A stretch of 64,000 nt of DNA, from positions 2,604,001 to 2,668,000 of the forward strand of contig NZ_CP062260.1 of NCBI RefSeq assembly GCF_014863545.1. The letters are read 5' to 3'. This document shows, one piece after another, positions 5,438 through 56,147 of this stretch. The notes beneath the pieces were generated by a model. The model was not told the DNA's origin. It searched no databases and saw nothing but the letters and a program-made list of their open reading frames with translations. Each line of letters starts with the position of its first letter. The first letter of the stretch is position 1. A program made the translations under genes and the position numbers. Source of the DNA: Paenibacillus sp. JNUCC32 (GTDB lineage: Bacteria > Bacillota > Bacilli > Paenibacillales > Paenibacillaceae).

Positions 5438-6088
5438 ATGCTGGAACTGGAAGCGGCTTTAACTAGATTCATAGAACAACAAGACTTGTATAATCGGGAT
5501 TTCGGGCTCTTCACCGATCATGAAATACGGCAACGGTCCGAGGTACAGCTGCCGCCCGTGGATGACCGTATCACGCTGTCCCCTGAACTGGCTTATCTAT
5601 ATAGCCATTACGAGATGATTGACGCTAAGGCGGAAGGAACCCATAAAATGAAAAACGCAGCGGTTGAAATCGGCGAATCGGCTGTCATCTACTTTGTTTC
5701 TCCCGAGCATCTGGTCCGGCAGCAAATGGGCTATCGCTGGATTAGCGATAAGGGGGAAACCGTAGAATCGAGCAATTGGCCATCTCATCACGTTGTCATT
5801 GCCAATGTGAACGATGATCCGCTCATTGTAGATGTCCAAGCCAGTGGTTCACCCGTATATGCCGCTTTCGAAGGTGGCGAGCCTAAGCTGATCGCGAATT
5901 CGCTTGCGGACTGCTTTCACGCGCTGTCCGTCCTCATTGAAGGCGCTCTGCTTTTTCAAGGTGAAACCTGCGACGAAGAAACTTATGAGACGAAGCCGGA
6001 TTTTCTCGCCCATGTGATGCCGTCACTGTCGGATCTTTTGGGAAGCGAGCAAATGGATGCCCTGCTGGAATACTTATCTCTTCGATAA
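5438..6088 (+). CDS. SUKH/SMI1-KNR4-like protein
   Basis: A 216-residue cytosolic protein. Patterns such as LSPELAYLYSHYEM, a central YRWISDKG, and a late segment reading ANSLADCFHALSVL match the general SMI1/KNR4 (SUKH) layout, in which a loading domain is followed by a beta-rich core. SUKH proteins often act as immunity proteins against polymorphic toxins, but many are orphan genes, and no toxin gene is visible nearby. The start ATG follows GGAAGGGATG. The next gene lies 62 bases downstream on the same strand. Confidence 0.65.
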   Translation: MLELEAALTRFIEQQDLYNRDFGLFTDHEIRQRSEVQLPPVDDRITLSPELAYLYSHYEMIDAKAEGTHKMKNAAVEIGESAVIYFVSPEHLVRQQMGYRWISDKGETVESSNWPSHHVVIANVNDDPLIVDVQASGSPVYAAFEGGEPKLIANSLADCFHALSVLIEGALLFQGETCDEETYETKPDFLAHVMPSLSDLLGSEQMDALLEYLSLR

Positions 6089-8004: not shown

Positions 8005-8643
8005 CTAATCTCCTGCAGCCAAATGATTCGCTTCCATCGGTTTGCTCAGCCAATGCTCGTCGGTTTGAACATGATTCTTGCGGACGTACTTGGCAGCGCT
8101 ATGCTTAAAATCGTCATATGCAAATGCGGAAGCCAGCCTGACCACATAACCTTCCTGTTCACCGCCGCAGCAAGATCGCTTCGTATAACAAGCCTTGGCA
8201 GCATCCTCGTCCCAGATGCCCCGGTACAAGACAGGAACCGTAACCAGCCCCAGACGATCCGCCCATTCCTCCGTATCATCCCATGACAGGCACACATTCA
8301 ACTGATTCCACACGGAGAACAGCATGAAGTAGGACGGCAGCGCCGAATACGAAAGCGAATGTTTGGCATAGACGTTTTCCCCGCAGAGACGATATCCCTC
8401 CGGAATCAAATACTTGATGCCCCCATGCAGCGTCTTGACATAATGACGGGAAGGATGATCCTTGCTGTCCAGGGATCTGGCGTGGATGAAATCGGGGTAC
8501 ATGGTGGTGTTCTCCCCATCCATTTTCTCGGTAATGACGACCTCCTGCCCCTTAAAATGGTCGGTATTCCGCAAAATCTTATCGTCGTCGGTGTAACCTC
8601 TGGACCAGGGCAGATGCATCGTTCTGGGATATTTCATTTTCAT
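8005..8643 (-). CDS. RNA ligase family protein (minimal adenylyltransferase)
   Basis: A 212-residue nucleotidyltransferase that would join RNA (or nicked nucleic acid) ends through a lysyl-AMP intermediate. Visible motifs are I, K40-M-D-G-E-N45 with Lys40 as nucleophile; III, CGENVYAKH near 88-95; IV, E164-G-Y-V-V-R169; and V, AAKYVRK with Lys185. There is no added OB or C-terminal domain, so it is about the minimal catalytic unit. Its ATG lies 15 bases after the kinase-HD gene and has GAGAGGTG upstream. The neighbouring gene could supply the 5'-phosphate and clean 3' end that ligases need. Confidence 0.85.
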   Translation of the reverse strand: MKMKYPRTMHLPWSRGYTDDDKILRNTDHFKGQEVVITEKMDGENTTMYPDFIHARSLDSKDHPSRHYVKTLHGGIKYLIPEGYRLCGENVYAKHSLSYSALPSYFMLFSVWNQLNVCLSWDDTEEWADRLGLVTVPVLYRGIWDEDAAKACYTKRSCCGGEQEGYVVRLASAFAYDDFKHSAAKYVRKNHVQTDEHWLSKPMEANHLAAGD

Positions 8644-8658
8644 CGTTGTTCACCTCTC

Positions 8659-9624
8659 TTACTTGCCGAACGTATCGGCCTCTGCGAAGAAATACAGCTG
8701 AGCCAGCAAATCCTCGCCTAACAAATGATAAATCTTGGATGCGCCGGCATCGCCTCCGTGCAATATTTCCATATGGAAACTGACAAGTTGGACGACATGA
8801 AGCACAAATTCATCCTCATACCCAAGGTCTTTCAAGGCATGACATGCCATGATGGCCGATACATGCTCATGCCCATAATAGGAATAGTATCCTCGAGCCT
8901 GCTTCCATACTTTGCAAAACGGTTTGCCCGCGTCATGGAACAGAGCCGCTAATTGCATAGCCAGCAGATGATCGCCTTCGCCTTCATAGCAATTTTGGAT
9001 GTATTCCAGCACGGCAAACGTATGCTCCGACAACGTTCTCGAATGGAACGGATTCTCTTGATCAAATCCCAGCATCGTTTGAAAATAGGGGGATTGCGAT
9101 AAGTAACCGAACAACTCATCGTGATCCGGCCTGCGCGTTAGCAGCTGTTCCAAATCCTCTCTTGCCAGCTGAGTTTCACCCGCCTCATGAACGAGATGCA
9201 GATCGACAAACCCTTCCCCCATGACCGGGAATTCAAGATTCTTGGCATACTTGGTCATGATCTTCTCATCAAGCCGGCGTTTTCGTCTCATGACCCTATC
9301 CAGGGCCACTTCATAAGGAGTCGTGCAGATATGGCACTCCACCCGTCGATCGCCAAACCGTTTCAGAAATTTCTGTCTTCGTTCCCGGCTGACATTCGTT
9401 GCGTCGAATACGACGTTTCGATCCGACTTCAGCGCCTGTTCGATTTCGGCGAAAGCCTCGTCAAATACCATATACGTATTTTTCTGTTTGGATTCGCTGC
9501 CAAACAATTTTTCGCGTATCGCGTCCGTCGCAACCAGCACGGCCCGCTCGCTTTTGCACAATTGTTTGGCATAATAGCTTTTTCCGCTGCCGGGTATCCC
9601 GACCAGCATATGAATCGTACTCAT
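8659..9624 (-). CDS. P-loop polynucleotide-kinase-like protein with HD phosphohydrolase domain
   Basis: A 321-residue two-domain enzyme. Residues 5-160 are a P-loop kinase like T4 Pnk: Walker A GIPGSGKS (9-16), TDAIRE with Asp34, then FDATN (73-77) and an Arg-rich lid near 112-117. Residues 170-321 are an HD domain with metal ligands His201, His230-Asp231, His252/His254 and Asp317. The likely reactions are 5'-OH phosphorylation and removal of a 3' or 2',3' phosphate, i.e. healing broken RNA. I chose the ATG after AAAGGAGGTGAATTTC; an earlier GTG lies inside that ribosome site. The gene leads an operon with the RNA ligase. Confidence 0.85.
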   Translation of the reverse strand: MSTIHMLVGIPGSGKSYYAKQLCKSERAVLVATDAIREKLFGSESKQKNTYMVFDEAFAEIEQALKSDRNVVFDATNVSRERRQKFLKRFGDRRVECHICTTPYEVALDRVMRRKRRLDEKIMTKYAKNLEFPVMGEGFVDLHLVHEAGETQLAREDLEQLLTRRPDHDELFGYLSQSPYFQTMLGFDQENPFHSRTLSEHTFAVLEYIQNCYEGEGDHLLAMQLAALFHDAGKPFCKVWKQARGYYSYYGHEHVSAIMACHALKDLGYEDEFVLHVVQLVSFHMEILHGGDAGASKIYHLLGEDLLAQLYFFAEADTFGK

Positions 9625-9828
9625 GAAATTCACCTCCTTTCGCGACTAGCTTAGCATGGTGTCAGTGTCATGGTTTACCTGTTCGGAGGGGCTGAGCGTT
9701 ATATTCTTTCGAATCATTCTCTTTGATGGACATCGCCAATCGAATTTCTTCCCTCCAAATAATGTACCACGCTTGCACTTTGCTTGAGTAAGCAAAGAAT
9801 ATGTATATTCAACTTTTACATACCGAAC

Positions 9829-9877
9829 AAAAAAGCCGATTGCCCGCAGAAAAAGCATCCGCAGACAATCGGCCTTT
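9829..9877 (-). terminator. Terminator after GntR/LacI regulator gene
   Basis: Long stem built from GCCGATTG and CAATCGGC with further CTGCGG pairing inside. Six A follow on the plus strand, giving a U tract for the minus transcript ten bases after the stop at 9887. Confidence 0.85.
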
Positions 9878-9886
9878 ATGTCGTAT

Positions 9887-11026
9887 CTACTTGCCCGATC
9901 TCGCTTTCGGAGCAGGAGCGGTCGTGTCCCGCTCCACCAGCTTGACGGGAATCAGCGCCCTGCCCGGTGTCGGTTTCCCTCTCTCCAGCCAGTTTACGAC
10001 ATGCTCGGCCGCTTGGCGGCCGATCTCGTAAAAGTTCTGCTCGACGGTAGTGAGAGGGATCATCACATGCTCCGTGACCGGATTATTATCAAAGCCAATG
10101 ATCGAGATATCGTCCGGAATGCGGATCCCCCTCTCCAAACAGAGGTTTAGCAGGTTGGCGGCGATCAGATCATTTTCCGTCTGAACGGCCGTCACCCCCT
10201 CCGTCTTGTACGAGTCCAGCAGCTCGTTATAAAATTGCTCCACGCCGACCTTCTCCCGGTAACCCTTCATGTTCAGCCTGATATAACGGCTGTCGAGGGG
10301 AAGCCCGTGGTCCTTCAGCGCTTGGCAGTATCCGAAATACCGGTCGCGCACCGACGAAGTGGATTCAATGCTGACCGCGGTCAAAAACGCAATTTTTCTG
10401 TGTCCAAGCTCAATCAATCGGGATACGGCTTGATAAGAGCCGCTCCAATTATCCGAAACGACCGCCCCGAGCGGGAGGCTGTCAAAGTATTTATCGATGG
10501 TCACGATCGGATAATCTTCAAGGCACAGCCGATGCAGGATATCGTAGTTCGTATGATCGTTCCGAGGGTACAATATAATGGCCGCAATGCCCTTTCGGGT
10601 CAGCATCTCCAGCAGATCGCGCTCCTTCTGGGAGTCATAATCGCTTTGATGAATGCTTAAATAGTAGCCGTTCGCGTTCAGCCAGTCCGAAGCGCCGCGA
10701 ATATACCCCATCGTGCCGCGGTCGTCTTCGGAAGGCAGGATCAGCGATATCATTTTTTCCGTTCCAACCGATCGCTGCTCCTGACCCCGCTGCCGGGGTT
10801 TGACAAAGCTTCCGCTTCCTTTGACGCGGTAGATGAACCCGTCCCGCTCCAGCTCCTCGAGCGCTCTTCTTGTTGTAATGCGGCTCACGCCGAAGGCCGT
10901 ACTCAGCTCGGCCTCGGTAGGAAGCTGGGCCTCGGAAGGGTACAGGCCGGATGAAATTTTCGATTTTAGCTCGTCCATCATCACGCGGTACAGCGGTTTA
11001 TTGTCTTTGGTCAACTTGGTTCTCAT
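9887..11026 (-). CDS. GntR/LacI hybrid (AraR-like) transcriptional regulator
   Basis: A 379-residue repressor. It has an N-terminal GntR winged helix (LPTEAELSTAFGVSRITTRR about residues 39-58, then GFIYRVKGSGSF) and a C-terminal LacI-type periplasmic-binding fold (SVIESTSSVRDRY, IIGFDNNPVTEHV). This is the layout of Bacillus AraR, a sugar-responsive repressor. It closes the lplB-lplC-binding protein block on the same strand, 106 bases after the lipoprotein gene, and probably represses it. The candidate operators are at 14800-14926. The ribosome site is poor (GATGGG close to the ATG). Confidence 0.88.
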   Translation of the reverse strand: MRTKLTKDNKPLYRVMMDELKSKISSGLYPSEAQLPTEAELSTAFGVSRITTRRALEELERDGFIYRVKGSGSFVKPRQRGQEQRSVGTEKMISLILPSEDDRGTMGYIRGASDWLNANGYYLSIHQSDYDSQKERDLLEMLTRKGIAAIILYPRNDHTNYDILHRLCLEDYPIVTIDKYFDSLPLGAVVSDNWSGSYQAVSRLIELGHRKIAFLTAVSIESTSSVRDRYFGYCQALKDHGLPLDSRYIRLNMKGYREKVGVEQFYNELLDSYKTEGVTAVQTENDLIAANLLNLCLERGIRIPDDISIIGFDNNPVTEHVMIPLTTVEQNFYEIGRQAAEHVVNWLERGKPTPGRALIPVKLVERDTTAPAPKARSGK

Positions 11027-22053: not shown

Positions 22054-23178
22054 TCAAGCGGATTTCGAGGACTTTTTATTTTTTTTGAACAGCCATTTCC
22101 GGAGTCCATGCATGACAAACAATAGCAGTGGGAATATAAACCCGATGGTGATCGTATATGGAATCCAGGTCTTTGAGTCCCATTCCAACTTGAATGGAAC
22201 ATTGGGATATATGAAGACGGAAACTGCCGCAAGTATCCAGCCTAGCGGCACGACCAGCGGCTGATAATTTTTGATTTTAAATATCTGACTGACGCCGATC
22301 GCAATGGCGTAAAAGTACAAAGAGATTCGGAAAAATAAAGTGATAAACCACATCACCGCCATGACTGCTTCAATACGCTGAAGAAAATTACCGATATTGA
22401 TTTTTTTGGCCAACATATAACTGGGGTACATATTTCGTGCCGTAATGTCCGGGCCCAAGACCAAAATCGCTAATCCAATAATCGTAAAAAGCACCCCCGC
22501 ACCGATTAGGCTACCGATATATACGGCTTTGTATGCCTCCGCCGGGCGGTTAACGGCCCCCGGGTAGATGATCATCAACACGACGTGCGGCAAAAACGCA
22601 GTACTAACGAAAGAGATTGCGGCAGGGAAGATAGGCTTGGCACCCGATTCGAAAATGGGAAGTGCATTCTCCCATTTAATCTCCGAGAATAATAAAATGC
22701 TCATGGACAGAAACAGAAGAAGAAACCATGGAAACAGTATCTCCGCTGATCTGGCCAGCACTTCGAGCCCCAAACGCACCCCCAGGACAACAAGGGCCCC
22801 GAAGAGGAAAATGATCGCCTGAATCGGGGTTTCGGGCAGCATTTGTATGGTCATGAAGTCGCTAATTTCGTGTAACACCCAAGCGGGACCACTTAGGAGC
22901 AATGTAGTTAATAACAGAAAGTTTACCGTTTTGCCGATCCATTTCCCTAAAAGTTTCTCGGATAATTGCATCAAATTCGTTTCCGGATACTTTTTGGACA
23001 ATTGCAACTGCAGCGCCAAGATCATGAATCCTAGACCGATCCCGACCAAAGCGGCAATCCATGCATCTTGCTTAGCAATGTTAGCCGTACCCGAAGGAAC
23101 GATAAGGATAGCGCTCCCGATCGTATACATGGCAGTTAAAATGCTGACCTGGCGCAATGATATTTTGACAACGGGCAT
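22054..23178 (-). CDS. Germinant receptor B subunit (GerAB/ArcD-like)
   Basis: A 374-residue membrane protein of the amino-acid/polyamine transporter-like GerAB family, with about ten helices. It starts KISLRQVSILTAMYTIGSAI and has a Lys/Arg-rich tail (HGLRKWLFKKNKKSSK). In spores this subunit binds the germinant in the inner membrane. I chose the ATG after AAAGGAGCAGGAAAG; the open frame extends 16 codons upstream without a site. It is last in the order gerA-gerC-small-gerB. Confidence 0.9.
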   Translation of the reverse strand: MPVVKISLRQVSILTAMYTIGSAILIVPSGTANIAKQDAWIAALVGIGLGFMILALQLQLSKKYPETNLMQLSEKLLGKWIGKTVNFLLLTTLLLSGPAWVLHEISDFMTIQMLPETPIQAIIFLFGALVVLGVRLGLEVLARSAEILFPWFLLLFLSMSILLFSEIKWENALPIFESGAKPIFPAAISFVSTAFLPHVVLMIIYPGAVNRPAEAYKAVYIGSLIGAGVLFTIIGLAILVLGPDITARNMYPSYMLAKKINIGNFLQRIEAVMAVMWFITLFFRISLYFYAIAIGVSQIFKIKNYQPLVVPLGWILAAVSVFIYPNVPFKLEWDSKTWIPYTITIGFIFPLLLFVMHGLRKWLFKKNKKSSKSA

Positions 23179-23195
23179 CTTTCCTGCTCCTTTTC

Positions 23196-23435
23196 TTATT
23201 GGATCAAACCGATAGCAGAGAGCCAATCACTGAACGGCTTGAATACGATCGTTAACATAACCATAGGAGTTGGAATATCGTTCATGACCGTTTGGACCAC
23301 GCTTATTCCAATGCCTATAATCATAAATGCCGTGAACCCCCAAATTTCCCTTTGTTCTTTTTCCCGGAGCATCCTCGGCAGCTCAAGCCAGGTTAGGATG
23401 GTGGCTGAAATTGCAATAATCGCGATATTCAGCAT
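23196..23435 (-). CDS. Small two-helix membrane protein of germinant-receptor operon
   Basis: A 79-residue protein with two membrane helices (about residues 2-18 and 31-50) and a short tail ending DWLSAIGLIQ. Small D-subunit genes with this size and topology are known beside some Bacillus germinant-receptor operons, where they modulate the response. The ATG at 23435 has GAGGCG upstream. The gene sits tightly between gerC (9 bp) and gerB (17 bp). Confidence 0.75.
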   Translation of the reverse strand: MLNIAIIAISATILTWLELPRMLREKEQREIWGFTAFMIIGIGISVVQTVMNDIPTPMVMLTIVFKPFSDWLSAIGLIQ

Positions 23436-23444
23436 CAATTCGCC

Positions 23445-24650
23445 TCATTCCTTTAGATCATTTAGAAAAGAATCATTGGTTGTTCCGGTTCGCCGGATTT
23501 TGTAATCCACATGAATATGAGTCTCGAGGTTTGGAAAATACCGGTCGTTCCACTCTTCCTCCATTGCCTTCCACGCTTTCGGATGCGAACGGCGAAAAGC
23601 CTCCCCGAAGCCGAATATGTCCACTTTAAACTCATCCTGCACTTTATTGATAACGGACTCCAAGCTTTGGGTTATGTTTTCTTCCATTTCGACTTCGAGA
23701 TCCCTCACGGTTGCTGGCTGCGTCAGATCCAATCCGCTGCACTCCACAGCACCAATATTTCCCTCCAAACGAATCATGATATCCATTTCTGGACGGGATT
23801 CGACGAATCTTCCTTTCATCTTGGAATCGGTTCTCAGCGTCTCCACGACAACCTTTCCATCGTTCCGGCAGGGAATAAACGCTACGGAGCTTTTCACGTG
23901 CCCCCTTATGAGTCGATACCCCCTGCTATCCTTCTCGTTTAACCATCCGATCAGCTTGTCAAATTTGAAAACGGCAAGCCCCGAATATTTCAATTGGCTC
24001 GGTGTATCGATATTTTCTACGTTTTTCCTCGTTTTTCCAAAATCCCGATTCCCTGTTATCACCAGTCCTGTAAGCACGGGGTGTTTTCCGCTGCTGGTAA
24101 TATCACTTATCAATTGATCCAGTGTCACAGCCATGCTGGGTGACCAAACCTTCTCCGAGATTTGCAGGGAATCGTAAAGTTTATTGGCAGGAATCGTTTC
24201 CATGGACGTCATGATTTTCAAGGTTTCCTCCACTGTTGCTCCTTTGGTAACAACCAGGTAGAAATCGGGTCTGAATTCGTGATCCCTCGATAACAAGTCA
24301 AGTACTTTGGCTATCCCTTCCCTTGCCATCGCCTCATCCATCAGAAACATCCGTAAATGGGAAAAATATATTTTTCGCGGGCTGATCTGAGTAATCCTTC
24401 GCGCCGCTTCAAATATGGTGTCGCCTTCAGCCGTAAACAGCGTAGCAGGCGCTTGGGGACTTCCGCTCCTTTTGGCTGTGATCTGCCCGGGAATAGCGAC
24501 TTGGACCGATAAACGGTAGCGGCCGTCTACCCAGTCAACCCCTGCGGCCACCGCTACGGCCAGCTCGTTCAATTCCCTCCGGTTCCAGCAACCGCTCAGA
24601 AGAAGCGTGATGACGATATGTAGGATAAGCAAGGTCAATATCCGTTTCAT
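23445..24650 (-). CDS. Germinant receptor C subunit (Ger(x)C lipoprotein)
   Basis: A 401-residue lipoprotein. The signal ends in LLSGC with Cys21 for lipidation, followed by WNRRELNEL, the usual Ger(x)C opening. The rest contains typical blocks such as SGLAVFKFDKLIGWLNEKDS and a C-terminal amphipathic domain. It acts on the outer face of the spore inner membrane with the A and B subunits. It starts 36 bp after gerA stops. Confidence 0.9.
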   Translation of the reverse strand: MKRILTLLILHIVITLLLSGCWNRRELNELAVAVAAGVDWVDGRYRLSVQVAIPGQITAKRSGSPQAPATLFTAEGDTIFEAARRITQISPRKIYFSHLRMFLMDEAMAREGIAKVLDLLSRDHEFRPDFYLVVTKGATVEETLKIMTSMETIPANKLYDSLQISEKVWSPSMAVTLDQLISDITSSGKHPVLTGLVITGNRDFGKTRKNVENIDTPSQLKYSGLAVFKFDKLIGWLNEKDSRGYRLIRGHVKSSVAFIPCRNDGKVVVETLRTDSKMKGRFVESRPEMDIMIRLEGNIGAVECSGLDLTQPATVRDLEVEMEENITQSLESVINKVQDEFKVDIFGFGEAFRRSHPKAWKAMEEEWNDRYFPNLETHIHVDYKIRRTGTTNDSFLNDLKE

Positions 24651-24686
24651 TCAATTCACTCGCTTTCCCGCTTGTATGAAAATTAG

Positions 24687-26282
24687 CTATTCCCGCGATT
24701 TCTGGGGAGGTTTGCTGTTGCTGCGCTTTACGTTATACTGATTTATCAAACGGGGGCGAGTCGACATCATCCAATGTGGCAGCCGTAAGAGCGTGTCTTT
24801 TTGCCCATCCGGAATTAGCGGCGCTAAAGGCGACATATACGGAACTCCAAACGAGCGGAGGCTGCACAAATGCAGAATTAGGGCGATGATCCCGACTAAT
24901 ATGCCGAACAGGCCAAAAGATCCGGCAAGCGCCATCAACGGAAATCGGAGCATCCGAAAAGCAATGGACATGTTGAAAGATGGAACGACAAAGCTGGAAA
25001 TGGCCGTTATCGCAACCACGATGACCATGGCCGGTGAGATGATCCCCGCTTCGACGGCGGCTTGACCTATGACCAACGTTCCTACGATGGAAATCGCCGA
25101 CCCGATATTTTTGGGCAGCCGCACGCCAGCCTCCCGCAGAATCTCGAAAGTGACCTCCATGAGGACGGCCTCAACGAAGGCGGGAAACGGGATCTGCTCA
25201 CGTTGTCCAGCCAGCCCGAACAGGAGCCGGGTCGGCAGCATTTCGTGATGAAAGGTGGTTATGGCTACATAGAGGGAAGGCCCAAGCAACGAAATGAATA
25301 TGCTCAGGTAGCGAAGCACCCGCAGGAATGAACTGATATCCGCGCGCTGATAGTAATCTTCCGCAGCATGCAAGAAGGAAACAAATAGGGCCGGAACGAT
25401 CAGCACAAATGGAGTGCCATCCACGATAATAGCGACTTTGCCTTCAAGCAGCTCGGCTGCGACCACATCGGGACGTTCGGTATTATATACGGTGGGAAAA
25501 GGAGTTAAGGTCTTATCCTGGACCAGTTCCTCGATATATCCGCTCTCCAAAATGCTGTCTACATCGATTCGTCCAAGCCGGGTGCGGACTTCTCCGACGA
25601 TTTTCTCGTTAGCAATGCCTTTGATGTACATCATCGCGACATCGGTTTGCGTTACTCGGCCGATCTGCTTCGTTTCCATCCAAAGATTCGGATCCTTGAT
25701 CTTTCGGCGAATCAAGGCCGTATTCGTACGCAGTGCCTCCGAAAAGGACTCGCGCGGGCCGCGGACGACATTTTCCGCCGACGTTTCCATGACCCCGCGG
25801 TCCTTCCATCCCCGTGTGCCTGCTGCGATACCTCGATCCAATCCATCTACCAGAAAAATGGTGTCTCCCGACAATAAGGAATGGAACAACTTTTTATAAT
25901 CGGTTATAGACTGAATCTCGTTATTGACGAGGGAAATTTGTTCTAATATCTTTTGCCCTTCGAATGCCTCAAAATGATCCGAATCATCCCTAACCCGGGA
26001 TTTTGCAATATCAGCTACGACCATCATGATGGATTCCGAAATGATCTTCTGGTCGGACAAACCATCGGTATAGAGTATAGCGATATAATGTATCTCCTTG
26101 TCATCCAGCGGAATTTCCCTGATCACGATATCGGTACTGTTTCCGAGGGCTGCTCTGATATGGTTTAGATTGCTTTTTATATCCGGGCTTAAAGCATCGG
26201 GATCTTTAGTCGATGTGTTAGCCGGTCGGGTATCTTTGGTGTTGTTTTTGATGTGATGGCCGCTTCTTCTTCGATACCGCAT
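24687..26282 (-). CDS. Germinant receptor A subunit (GerAA family)
   Basis: A 531-residue protein. A long N-terminal cytosolic region (about 1-290) contains ENVVRGPRESFSEALRTN, a GerA-family signature. Several membrane helices follow (GKVAIIVDGTPFVLIVPALF, then the MALAGSFGLFGILVG region). It ends in a basic tail. AGAGGAAGG lies about eight bases before the ATG. It is the first gene of the receptor operon. A forespore (sigma-G) promoter is expected, but I could not identify one with confidence. Confidence 0.92.
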   Translation of the reverse strand: MRYRRRSGHHIKNNTKDTRPANTSTKDPDALSPDIKSNLNHIRAALGNSTDIVIREIPLDDKEIHYIAILYTDGLSDQKIISESIMMVVADIAKSRVRDDSDHFEAFEGQKILEQISLVNNEIQSITDYKKLFHSLLSGDTIFLVDGLDRGIAAGTRGWKDRGVMETSAENVVRGPRESFSEALRTNTALIRRKIKDPNLWMETKQIGRVTQTDVAMMYIKGIANEKIVGEVRTRLGRIDVDSILESGYIEELVQDKTLTPFPTVYNTERPDVVAAELLEGKVAIIVDGTPFVLIVPALFVSFLHAAEDYYQRADISSFLRVLRYLSIFISLLGPSLYVAITTFHHEMLPTRLLFGLAGQREQIPFPAFVEAVLMEVTFEILREAGVRLPKNIGSAISIVGTLVIGQAAVEAGIISPAMVIVVAITAISSFVVPSFNMSIAFRMLRFPLMALAGSFGLFGILVGIIALILHLCSLRSFGVPYMSPLAPLIPDGQKDTLLRLPHWMMSTRPRLINQYNVKRSNSKPPQKSRE

Positions 26283-55583: not shown

Positions 55584-56147
55584 TCAGCCCTCCAGGAACG
55601 TATCGTCAAAATACGCTTTGAAATCCGGGTACAAAAATACTAGCGACTCTTTAAGTTCGGCCCGATCCGTGTGTTCTTCATCCAGATCAAACAATATTTC
55701 ATGTTCGATCTCATAGATGGCTCCGATTCCCTCGCCGGCCTCTCCACTTACATCGATACACCAGATCTTGCCGTATTCGGAATCCCAAGTGAAAGGGAGA
55801 TATCCCAGTCGGCACAACAAGGGATTGTACATGTTCCTGACGTTCTCCAGCGGCTCGTCTACCGGCTGTTCAGGTATGACGTCAAAGTAATGATGGTACG
55901 TGGAGATGAATGCTTTATACCACTCGGGAAAATTCAATCCATACGCTGCTTCCATCTCCCCAATCTGATCTTCGCTCACAATGGAAGGGACCAATTTCCA
56001 TATGGACCATTCCTCATCGGTATCAACGGACTTCATCTCCGCGGGAACGTCCGGCCGCATCCACCTGCAGAACCCATCCTCCGAAATTTCGCCGTATTTA
56101 GCGTAATAGGCCTCAAACCCTCGTTTGATATAATCGCGTATTTCCAT
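55584..56147 (-). CDS. SMI1/KNR4 (SUKH) family protein
   Basis: A 187-residue acidic protein with the SUKH core: QIGEMEAAYGLNFPEWYKAF, the central YLPFTWDSEYGKIWCIDVSG, and the tail FLYPDFKAYFDDTF. These proteins often provide toxin immunity, but no toxin is encoded here. AAGGAG lies just before the ATG. It starts 36 bp upstream of the phosphotransferase-like gene and may be cotranscribed with it. Confidence 0.85.
   Translation of the reverse strand: MEIRDYIKRGFEAYYAKYGEISEDGFCRWMRPDVPAEMKSVDTDEEWSIWKLVPSIVSEDQIGEMEAAYGLNFPEWYKAFISTYHHYFDVIPEQPVDEPLENVRNMYNPLLCRLGYLPFTWDSEYGKIWCIDVSGEAGEGIGAIYEIEHEILFDLDEEHTDRAELKESLVFLYPDFKAYFDDTFLEG

Follow-up and report, generated by a model that had tools for sequence, protein, structure and literature searches.

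A conserved pair of kinase-HD and DRB0100-type ligase genes in Bacilli, a probable RNA end-healing and sealing cassette

What does a bacterium gain from a very short ligase gene placed directly behind a gene that joins a polynucleotide kinase (Pnk)-type domain to an HD domain? We met this question in a stretch of 64,000 nucleotides from Paenibacillus sp. JNUCC32 (the whole stretch is called the window below), where the two genes lie on the same strand, the ligase gene downstream of the kinase-HD gene. A preliminary description had taken the pair for an RNA end-repair cassette with a kinase-first arrangement, possibly countering RNA-cleaving toxins, and this interpretation is partly supported by the analysis presented here. 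The pair is probably an RNA end-healing and sealing cassette, most likely a chromosomally encoded back-up in case of attack by ribonuclease toxins. Its features are:

8659..9624, minus strand: kinase-HD gene, 321 amino acids, with an N-terminal Pnk-type P-loop kinase and a C-terminal HD phosphohydrolase
9175..9624, minus strand: kinase domain, about residues 1-150 (Walker A 9-16, D34, R37, DATN 74-77, R114), from PF13671, alignment and fold match
8662..9096, minus strand: HD domain, about residues 177-321 (H201, H230, D231, H252, H284, D317), from PF01966, alignment and fold match
9630..9639, minus strand: Shine-Dalgarno-like AAGGAGGTGA of the kinase-HD gene, with similar sites in orthologues
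8644..8658, minus strand: 15-bp gap with the Shine-Dalgarno-like GAGAGGTGA of the ligase gene (8658-8650), from the window sequence
8005..8643, minus strand: ligase gene, 212 amino acids, nucleotidyltransferase domain only, DRB0100-type, with K40 as the predicted adenylated lysine, from Pfam, alignment and structure model

The kinase-HD protein has a PF13671 (AAA_33) match at residues 5-122 (86.3 bits, cut-off 27) and a PF01966 HD match at residues 199-288 (30 bits, cut-off 22). AAA_33 is the family of Pnk-type P-loop kinases, and the protein has both the Walker A motif (GIPGSGKS) and the DATN motif. Frame, Pfam matches and motifs thus bear out a P-loop kinase with a C-terminal HD domain, as first described, and the kinase-first order is real: a Pnk kinase and an HD domain share one polypeptide, as in an HD-Pnk, but the HD domain is not N-terminal to the kinase. 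When the protein was aligned with 40 others picked from 120 listed matches, G9, P11, S13, G14, K15, D34, R37, D74, N77, R83 and R114 of the kinase and H201, H230, D231, H252, H284 and D317 of the HD domain were invariant in all 41. These residues, and those of the ligase below, presumably have the roles of their counterparts in T4 Pnk, HD enzymes and RNA ligases. The predicted structure has a mean predicted local distance difference test (pLDDT) of 95.7, and its nearest folds are polynucleotide kinases, including 4gp6 and 4xrp. The ATG start at 9624 lies 3' of AAGGAGGTGA, while a longer GTG start at 9633 falls within it. Identity reaches 87% with a P. lautus protein and 86% with the P. lautus NBRC 15380 locus, a similarity that puts the window's genome close to P. 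lautus within Paenibacillus. PADLOC returned only Cas3-HD matches for the kinase-HD protein, taken as generic HD similarity, and none for the ligase.

The ligase matches PF09414 (RNA_ligase) over residues 34-187, with 117 bits against a cut-off of 27, and contains both KMDGEN and EGYVVR. The minimal ligase 15 bp from the kinase-HD gene is therefore confirmed, with a nucleotidyltransferase domain only. In an alignment of 24 ligases (that of the window and 23 picked from 120 listed matches), E39, K40, D42, G43, E44, E164, G165, K185 and R188 are invariant. A PDB search with the ligase sequence alone gave no match, and one with its profile gave, amid unrelated rows, only weak matches to Naegleria RNA ligase (E 0.26-0.65), so that fold comparison was used instead. 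The best folds for the AlphaFold2 model (mean pLDDT 92.5) are RNA ligases, whose nucleotidyltransferase fold aligns with about residues 1-200. The motif I lysine, the EG of motif IV, the lysine of motif V and the fold place the protein on the RNA-ligase side of the covalent nucleotidyltransferase superfamily. The extra N- or C-terminal domain of T4 Rnl1, Rnl2 and OB-containing ligases is absent from its 212 residues. Over 208 residues the ligase shares 53% identity with DR_RS15960 of Deinococcus radiodurans plasmid MP1, K40 aligning with K40; with this identity, the retained lysine and the lone nucleotidyltransferase domain, it is of DRB0100 (ddrP/LigB) type. A T4-Rnl1-type identity was ruled out by the PF09414 and DRB0100 matches. 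Neither RtcB nor a second PF09414 ligase was found in the window's genome, in a search that did not extend to PF09511 or other ligase families.

The pairing is conserved. In a class sample of 398 genomes, with a match threshold of E 1e-15, kinase-HD matches occur in 31 and ligase matches in 22. A same-strand ligase gene adjoins 20 of the 21 kinase-HD genes with at least 40% identity (the exception is G185), which agrees with the adjacency expected from the preliminary description, and all 20 full-length ligase matches adjoin a kinase-HD gene in these same 20 genomes. For G394 and G223 the ligase match is to a fragment, and neither genome has a kinase-HD match. Ten remote kinase-HD matches (26-36%) comprise four with a kinase domain only, four with a weak HD match, G259, where the gene adjoins another RNA ligase, and G387, which gave no locus. 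Ten genomes match in a sample of 60 relatives; nine of these reach at least 47% identity, eight of the nine belong to the window's genus, and the ligase adjoins in 9/9. Among named genomes (Paenibacillus, Saccharibacillus, Bacillus, Gottfriedia, Lysinibacillus), both genes are present in 17/17 intact close loci, a count that excludes Lysinibacillus macroides (L028, frames of both genes broken), P. fonticola (L030, a kinase piece only and no ligase found) and Priestia flexa (L071, kinase-HD gene fragmented). The gap between the genes is 2-98 bp, mostly below 50 bp, among the orthologues listed, with L173 and L175 excluded.

The two proteins also diverge together, with a Mantel r of 0.891 that none of 5000 permutations reached (n = 42 loci, being 45 minus three with an identical kinase-HD sequence). 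In six pairs, both genes have a ratio of nonsynonymous to synonymous substitution rates of 0.02-0.18, while another pair was omitted after one member was removed as a duplicate; the reading frames are therefore not due to chance.

These parts appear suited to healing both ends of a break and then sealing it. A ribonuclease cut would leave a 5'-OH and a 2',3'-cyclic phosphate, whose ring the HD domain would open before removing the phosphate; the kinase domain would phosphorylate the 5'-OH with a nucleoside triphosphate, and the ligase, charged with adenosine monophosphate (AMP) on Lys40, would join the ends. The likeliest substrate would be transfer RNA. Of the proposal in the preliminary description, the kinase, HD and ligase cassette and its end-repair and RNA-enzyme folds are supported; it did not foresee that the ligase is DRB0100-like and not like T4 Rnl1, nor that viral contigs have the kinase-first order too.

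RNA is favoured as the substrate because of the best folds, the RNA ligases that adjoin kinase-HD genes in phages and the lack of LexA-like boxes: the exact pattern occurs in none of 46 upstream regions of 300 bp (43 of them distinct; one of the loci, L029, has a kinase-HD gene without a DRB0100-type ligase). The same three observations argue against DNA strand-break repair, in which the kinase-HD protein would heal DNA ends and the ligase, possibly aided by a further protein, would seal nicks in DNA, a role put forward for D. radiodurans LigB/DRB0100. We consider this reading unlikely, but it stays the main rival because the reports on DRB0100, the closest experimentally studied relative of the ligase among those found, conflict. 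We identified DR_RS15960 and its neighbours as DRB0100, DRB0099 and DRB0098 from gene order, sizes and the papers. According to passages of PMC1997131, radiation induces the DRB0098-0100 operon, DRB0098 acts as a 5'-kinase on a DNA oligonucleotide, whereas no assignment could be made for its phosphatase activity, and DRB0100 is AMP-charged via K40 but alone joins neither DNA nor RNA. In the relevant section of a review (PMC5128194), LigB/DRB0100 ligates only when complexed with DRB0098 and PprA, in a DNA-repair setting, and ligB deletion lowers DNA-damage tolerance. The inactivity on RNA and both statements of the review weigh against an RNA-repair cassette, and the 53% identity and two Bacillus phages with an annotated ATP-dependent DNA ligase gene near the kinase-HD gene also speak for DNA repair. 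Against it stand the lack of DNA ligation by DRB0100 alone and, contrary to the review, a passage of PMC1978522 according to which the DRB0100 knockout does not significantly change radiation resistance.

Defence against ribonuclease toxins is suggested by a link with SUFU genes and by the patchy distribution of the cassette. In several relatives a SUFU gene lies downstream of the cassette, sometimes with ankyrin/DUF4274, DUF2625 or DUF6138 genes. SUFU and ankyrin proteins figure in parts of PMC3482391 as immunity proteins of polyimmunity loci, where SUFU counters toxins of several kinds, including nucleases. We searched the window's genome and 23 others of the 28 cassette genomes (G055, G123, G289 and G403 were left out). 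In 11 of the 24 the cassette has a SUFU gene no more than 5 kb away, against 0.085 expected from the 52 SUFU genes present and rounded genome sizes, a figure that treats the genomes as independent, which they are not. The split is 4/8 in the window's genus, 7/11 in genus g41 of another family, probably Brevibacillus judging by its proteins, and 0/5 elsewhere.

The window's own cassette has no such neighbour, and its genome (7.0 Mb) has a SUFU gene 2.4 Mb away. A 216-amino-acid protein encoded near the cassette (5438-6088, plus strand) has a sub-threshold SUKH match (15.5 versus 25.4 bits), and P. faecis has a 60% identical relative (L014 3620-4279) about 2 kb from its cassette, on the other side. 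An SMI1/KNR4 (SUKH-1) gene at 55584-56147 (minus strand) scores just over the Pfam cut-off and lies 46 kb from the cassette; six SUKH matches of that kind occur genome-wide. With only a sub-threshold SUKH match beside it, we do not claim the immunity-gene link for the window, so that the toxin-countering role first proposed draws support from the relatives and none from the window's own neighbours. A search of its genome for a PrrC- or RloC-type trigger, which did not include other RNase families, gave only AAA_13 matches below the cut-off. Two families of Bacilli have a DUF6138 gene adjoining the cassette or SUFU (L334, L342, L038, L015, L017 and, by eye, L330), with 61% identity between L334 and L038 and 92% between L334 and L342; no paper naming DUF6138 was found in the open-licence PMC literature.

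The cassette might instead circularise, mature or recycle a specific RNA as part of housekeeping or regulatory processing, with no part in defence. Purifying selection and good ribosome sites fit such a role, as does the fact that no SUFU gene is near in 13 of the 24 cassette genomes. We regard it as improbable, given the patchy occurrence described above (31/398 and 22/398 genomes for the two genes, and 8/37 genomes searched in the window's genus, the window's own counted), flanking genes that vary between species, and relatives in phages and plasmids. No third gene common to all cassettes was seen in the flanks, where SUFU and DUF6138 appear only in part. Finally, the first gene might encode a small-molecule kinase, Zeta-toxin-like or other, that has nothing to do with its neighbour. 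For this speak a PF06414 match that barely passes its cut-off (24.6 versus 22.3 bits) and database names of some homologues, 'Zeta toxin' or 'AAA family ATPase'. The reading is very hard to sustain: PF13671 scores 86.3 bits, which ruled out a Zeta toxin identity, and the nearest folds, the HD fusion and the constant ligase partner all point elsewhere.

Upstream of the cassette lies a regulator gene (9887-11026, GntR/LacI-like by eye), and between the two there is one more feature:

9831..9877, minus strand: strong hairpin plus T run, separating the regulator gene from the cassette (-36.3 kcal/mol, z -10.3)

This hairpin, which is missing from the output of a simple terminator scan, is probably the terminator of the regulator gene. 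Since it parts the cassette from that gene, the kinase-HD and ligase genes probably form a transcription unit of their own. A promoter scan gave one site in the stretch, fewer than in shuffles, and none upstream of the cassette. Control by LexA and the SOS response was ruled out on the exact pattern, which gave no box in the 46 upstream regions. None of the six nearest genes tested on the downstream side has a macrodomain, so that a DRB0100-like three-gene operon is not present. Elsewhere in the window, three adjoining genes at 22054-26282 (minus strand) resemble, by eye, an operon for a spore germinant receptor.

Relatives beyond the Bacilli bear on the kinase-first order and on the partner ligase. 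A viral scan with a kinase-first query yielded at least 238 confirmed loci; in the best 80 of these, a kinase is followed by HD in 77 and stands alone in three. An RNA ligase of another family is found in the flank of 48 of the 80, on the same strand in all 48 and with a gap of at most 60 bp in 18, while 29 viral kinase-HD loci have no recognised ligase in the flank. Because the query was kinase-first, only the best 80 were taken and the ligase profiles were built partly from the same loci, these counts carry no information on how frequent the HD-first order is. Such a ligase also occurs in seven of the nine remote bacterial loci that are intact, compared with 0/51 in control bacterial loci without HD (50 with a kinase domain and one without a kinase match), which are mostly from cyanobacteria and not host-matched.

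Loci of DRB0100-type ligases were also opened. Of seven on plasmids, three have an HD-kinase gene alongside: D. radiodurans, where a TIGR02452 family gene lies between, Deinococcus sp. QL22, where the ligase and HD-kinase genes overlap with no gene between, and Pseudomonas sp. FeN3W. In Nonomuraea gerenzanensis (L237 3935-5920) a single open frame holds both a DRB0100-type ligase and a Pnk-type kinase, and no HD domain was found between them; in the remaining three the profiles found no kinase or HD-kinase within 4 kb. By profile, a kinase is present in 0/6 phage loci with such a ligase, and a kinase-HD gene in 0/80 viral ones; in one viral locus (L319) a weaker kinase match lies at a distance of 1.6 kb. 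The viral DRB0100-type ligases often have an N-terminal extension of about 130 residues (L230 3605-4627 and similar), which in Salicola phage SCTP-2 is HNH-like with a score below the Pfam cut-off. In viral contig L258 (1107-9617), a DRB0100-type ligase domain occupies residues 1299-1510 of an open frame that spans about 2,836 codons.

The HD-first order is found in DRB0098, QL22, FeN3W (whose HD scores below the Pfam cut-off) and Rhodothermus phage RM378. A profile of the window-type HD domain gave 22-61 bits with these four HD-first Pnks and 72-88 bits with nine CCA-type enzymes, a comparison biased in that the nine were picked as best hits; four have the CCA-type label from their source names and the others from Pfam domains. 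These scores, closer to the CCA-adding enzymes, hint at an independent fusion, by which Pnk kinase and HD may have been joined twice. Tentatively, the Bacilli may hold a separate, convergent end-healing class, made of a Pnk kinase and a CCA-enzyme-like HD domain, paired with a DRB0100-type ligase as a chromosomal RNA-repair immunity module that is often kept with SUFU and DUF6138. In that case RNA repair would also be the task of the Deinococcus DRB0098-0100 operon, and DRB0100-type ligases of the cassette kind would require a kinase-HD partner. DRB0100 has been a puzzle, being radiation-induced, AMP-charged and inactive alone, with conflicting reports on the effect of its loss; a two-gene version in easily grown Bacilli offers a clean test of whether ligases of this class work on RNA and depend on their kinase-HD partner. 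In some bacteria, to judge from the SUFU link in relatives, the repair of ribonuclease damage may be kept next to genes for the direct neutralisation of toxins.

We met no earlier account of the kinase-first pair in the open-licence PMC literature, although it may have been described before. Among known systems, Runella slithyformis HD-Pnk is likewise a kinase and an HD phosphatase in one chain, with the HD domain N-terminal, unlike here. T4 Pnkp-Rnl1 heals both ends and then seals, by the same logic, with a phosphatase that is not an HD domain; its kinase fold is related to the window's kinase and Rnl1 belongs to another ligase family. Bacterial Pnkp-Rnl-Hen1 is not known to have an HD phosphatase, and its kinase is related to that of the window (4gp6, 4xrp). 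It repairs ribotoxin-cleaved RNA as a three-protein heterohexamer with Hen1, according to passages of PMC4411300. The Pnk of phage RM378 (Rm378p110) also joins HD and kinase in one chain, in a phage that has an RNA ligase gene, but with HD first and the annotated ligase gene about 6.5 kb distant on the other strand. Parts of PMC7824862, on jumbo-phage surveys, describe PF09414-type ligases with kinases, few of them with HD-like phosphatases, as RNA repair. The pairs of Bacillus phage vB_BcoS-136 and its relatives are kinase-first with a same-strand ligase, as in the window, but their ligases are of other families (OB-fold plus RNA_ligase in vB_BcoS-136, T4 Rnl1 type in phage G). The D. radiodurans operon likewise pairs the ligase with a Pnk kinase and HD protein; there the ligase gene comes first, a macrodomain (PARG) gene lies between and HD is first in DRB0098, whereas in the window the kinase-HD gene comes first, the kinase precedes HD and nothing lies between the two genes.
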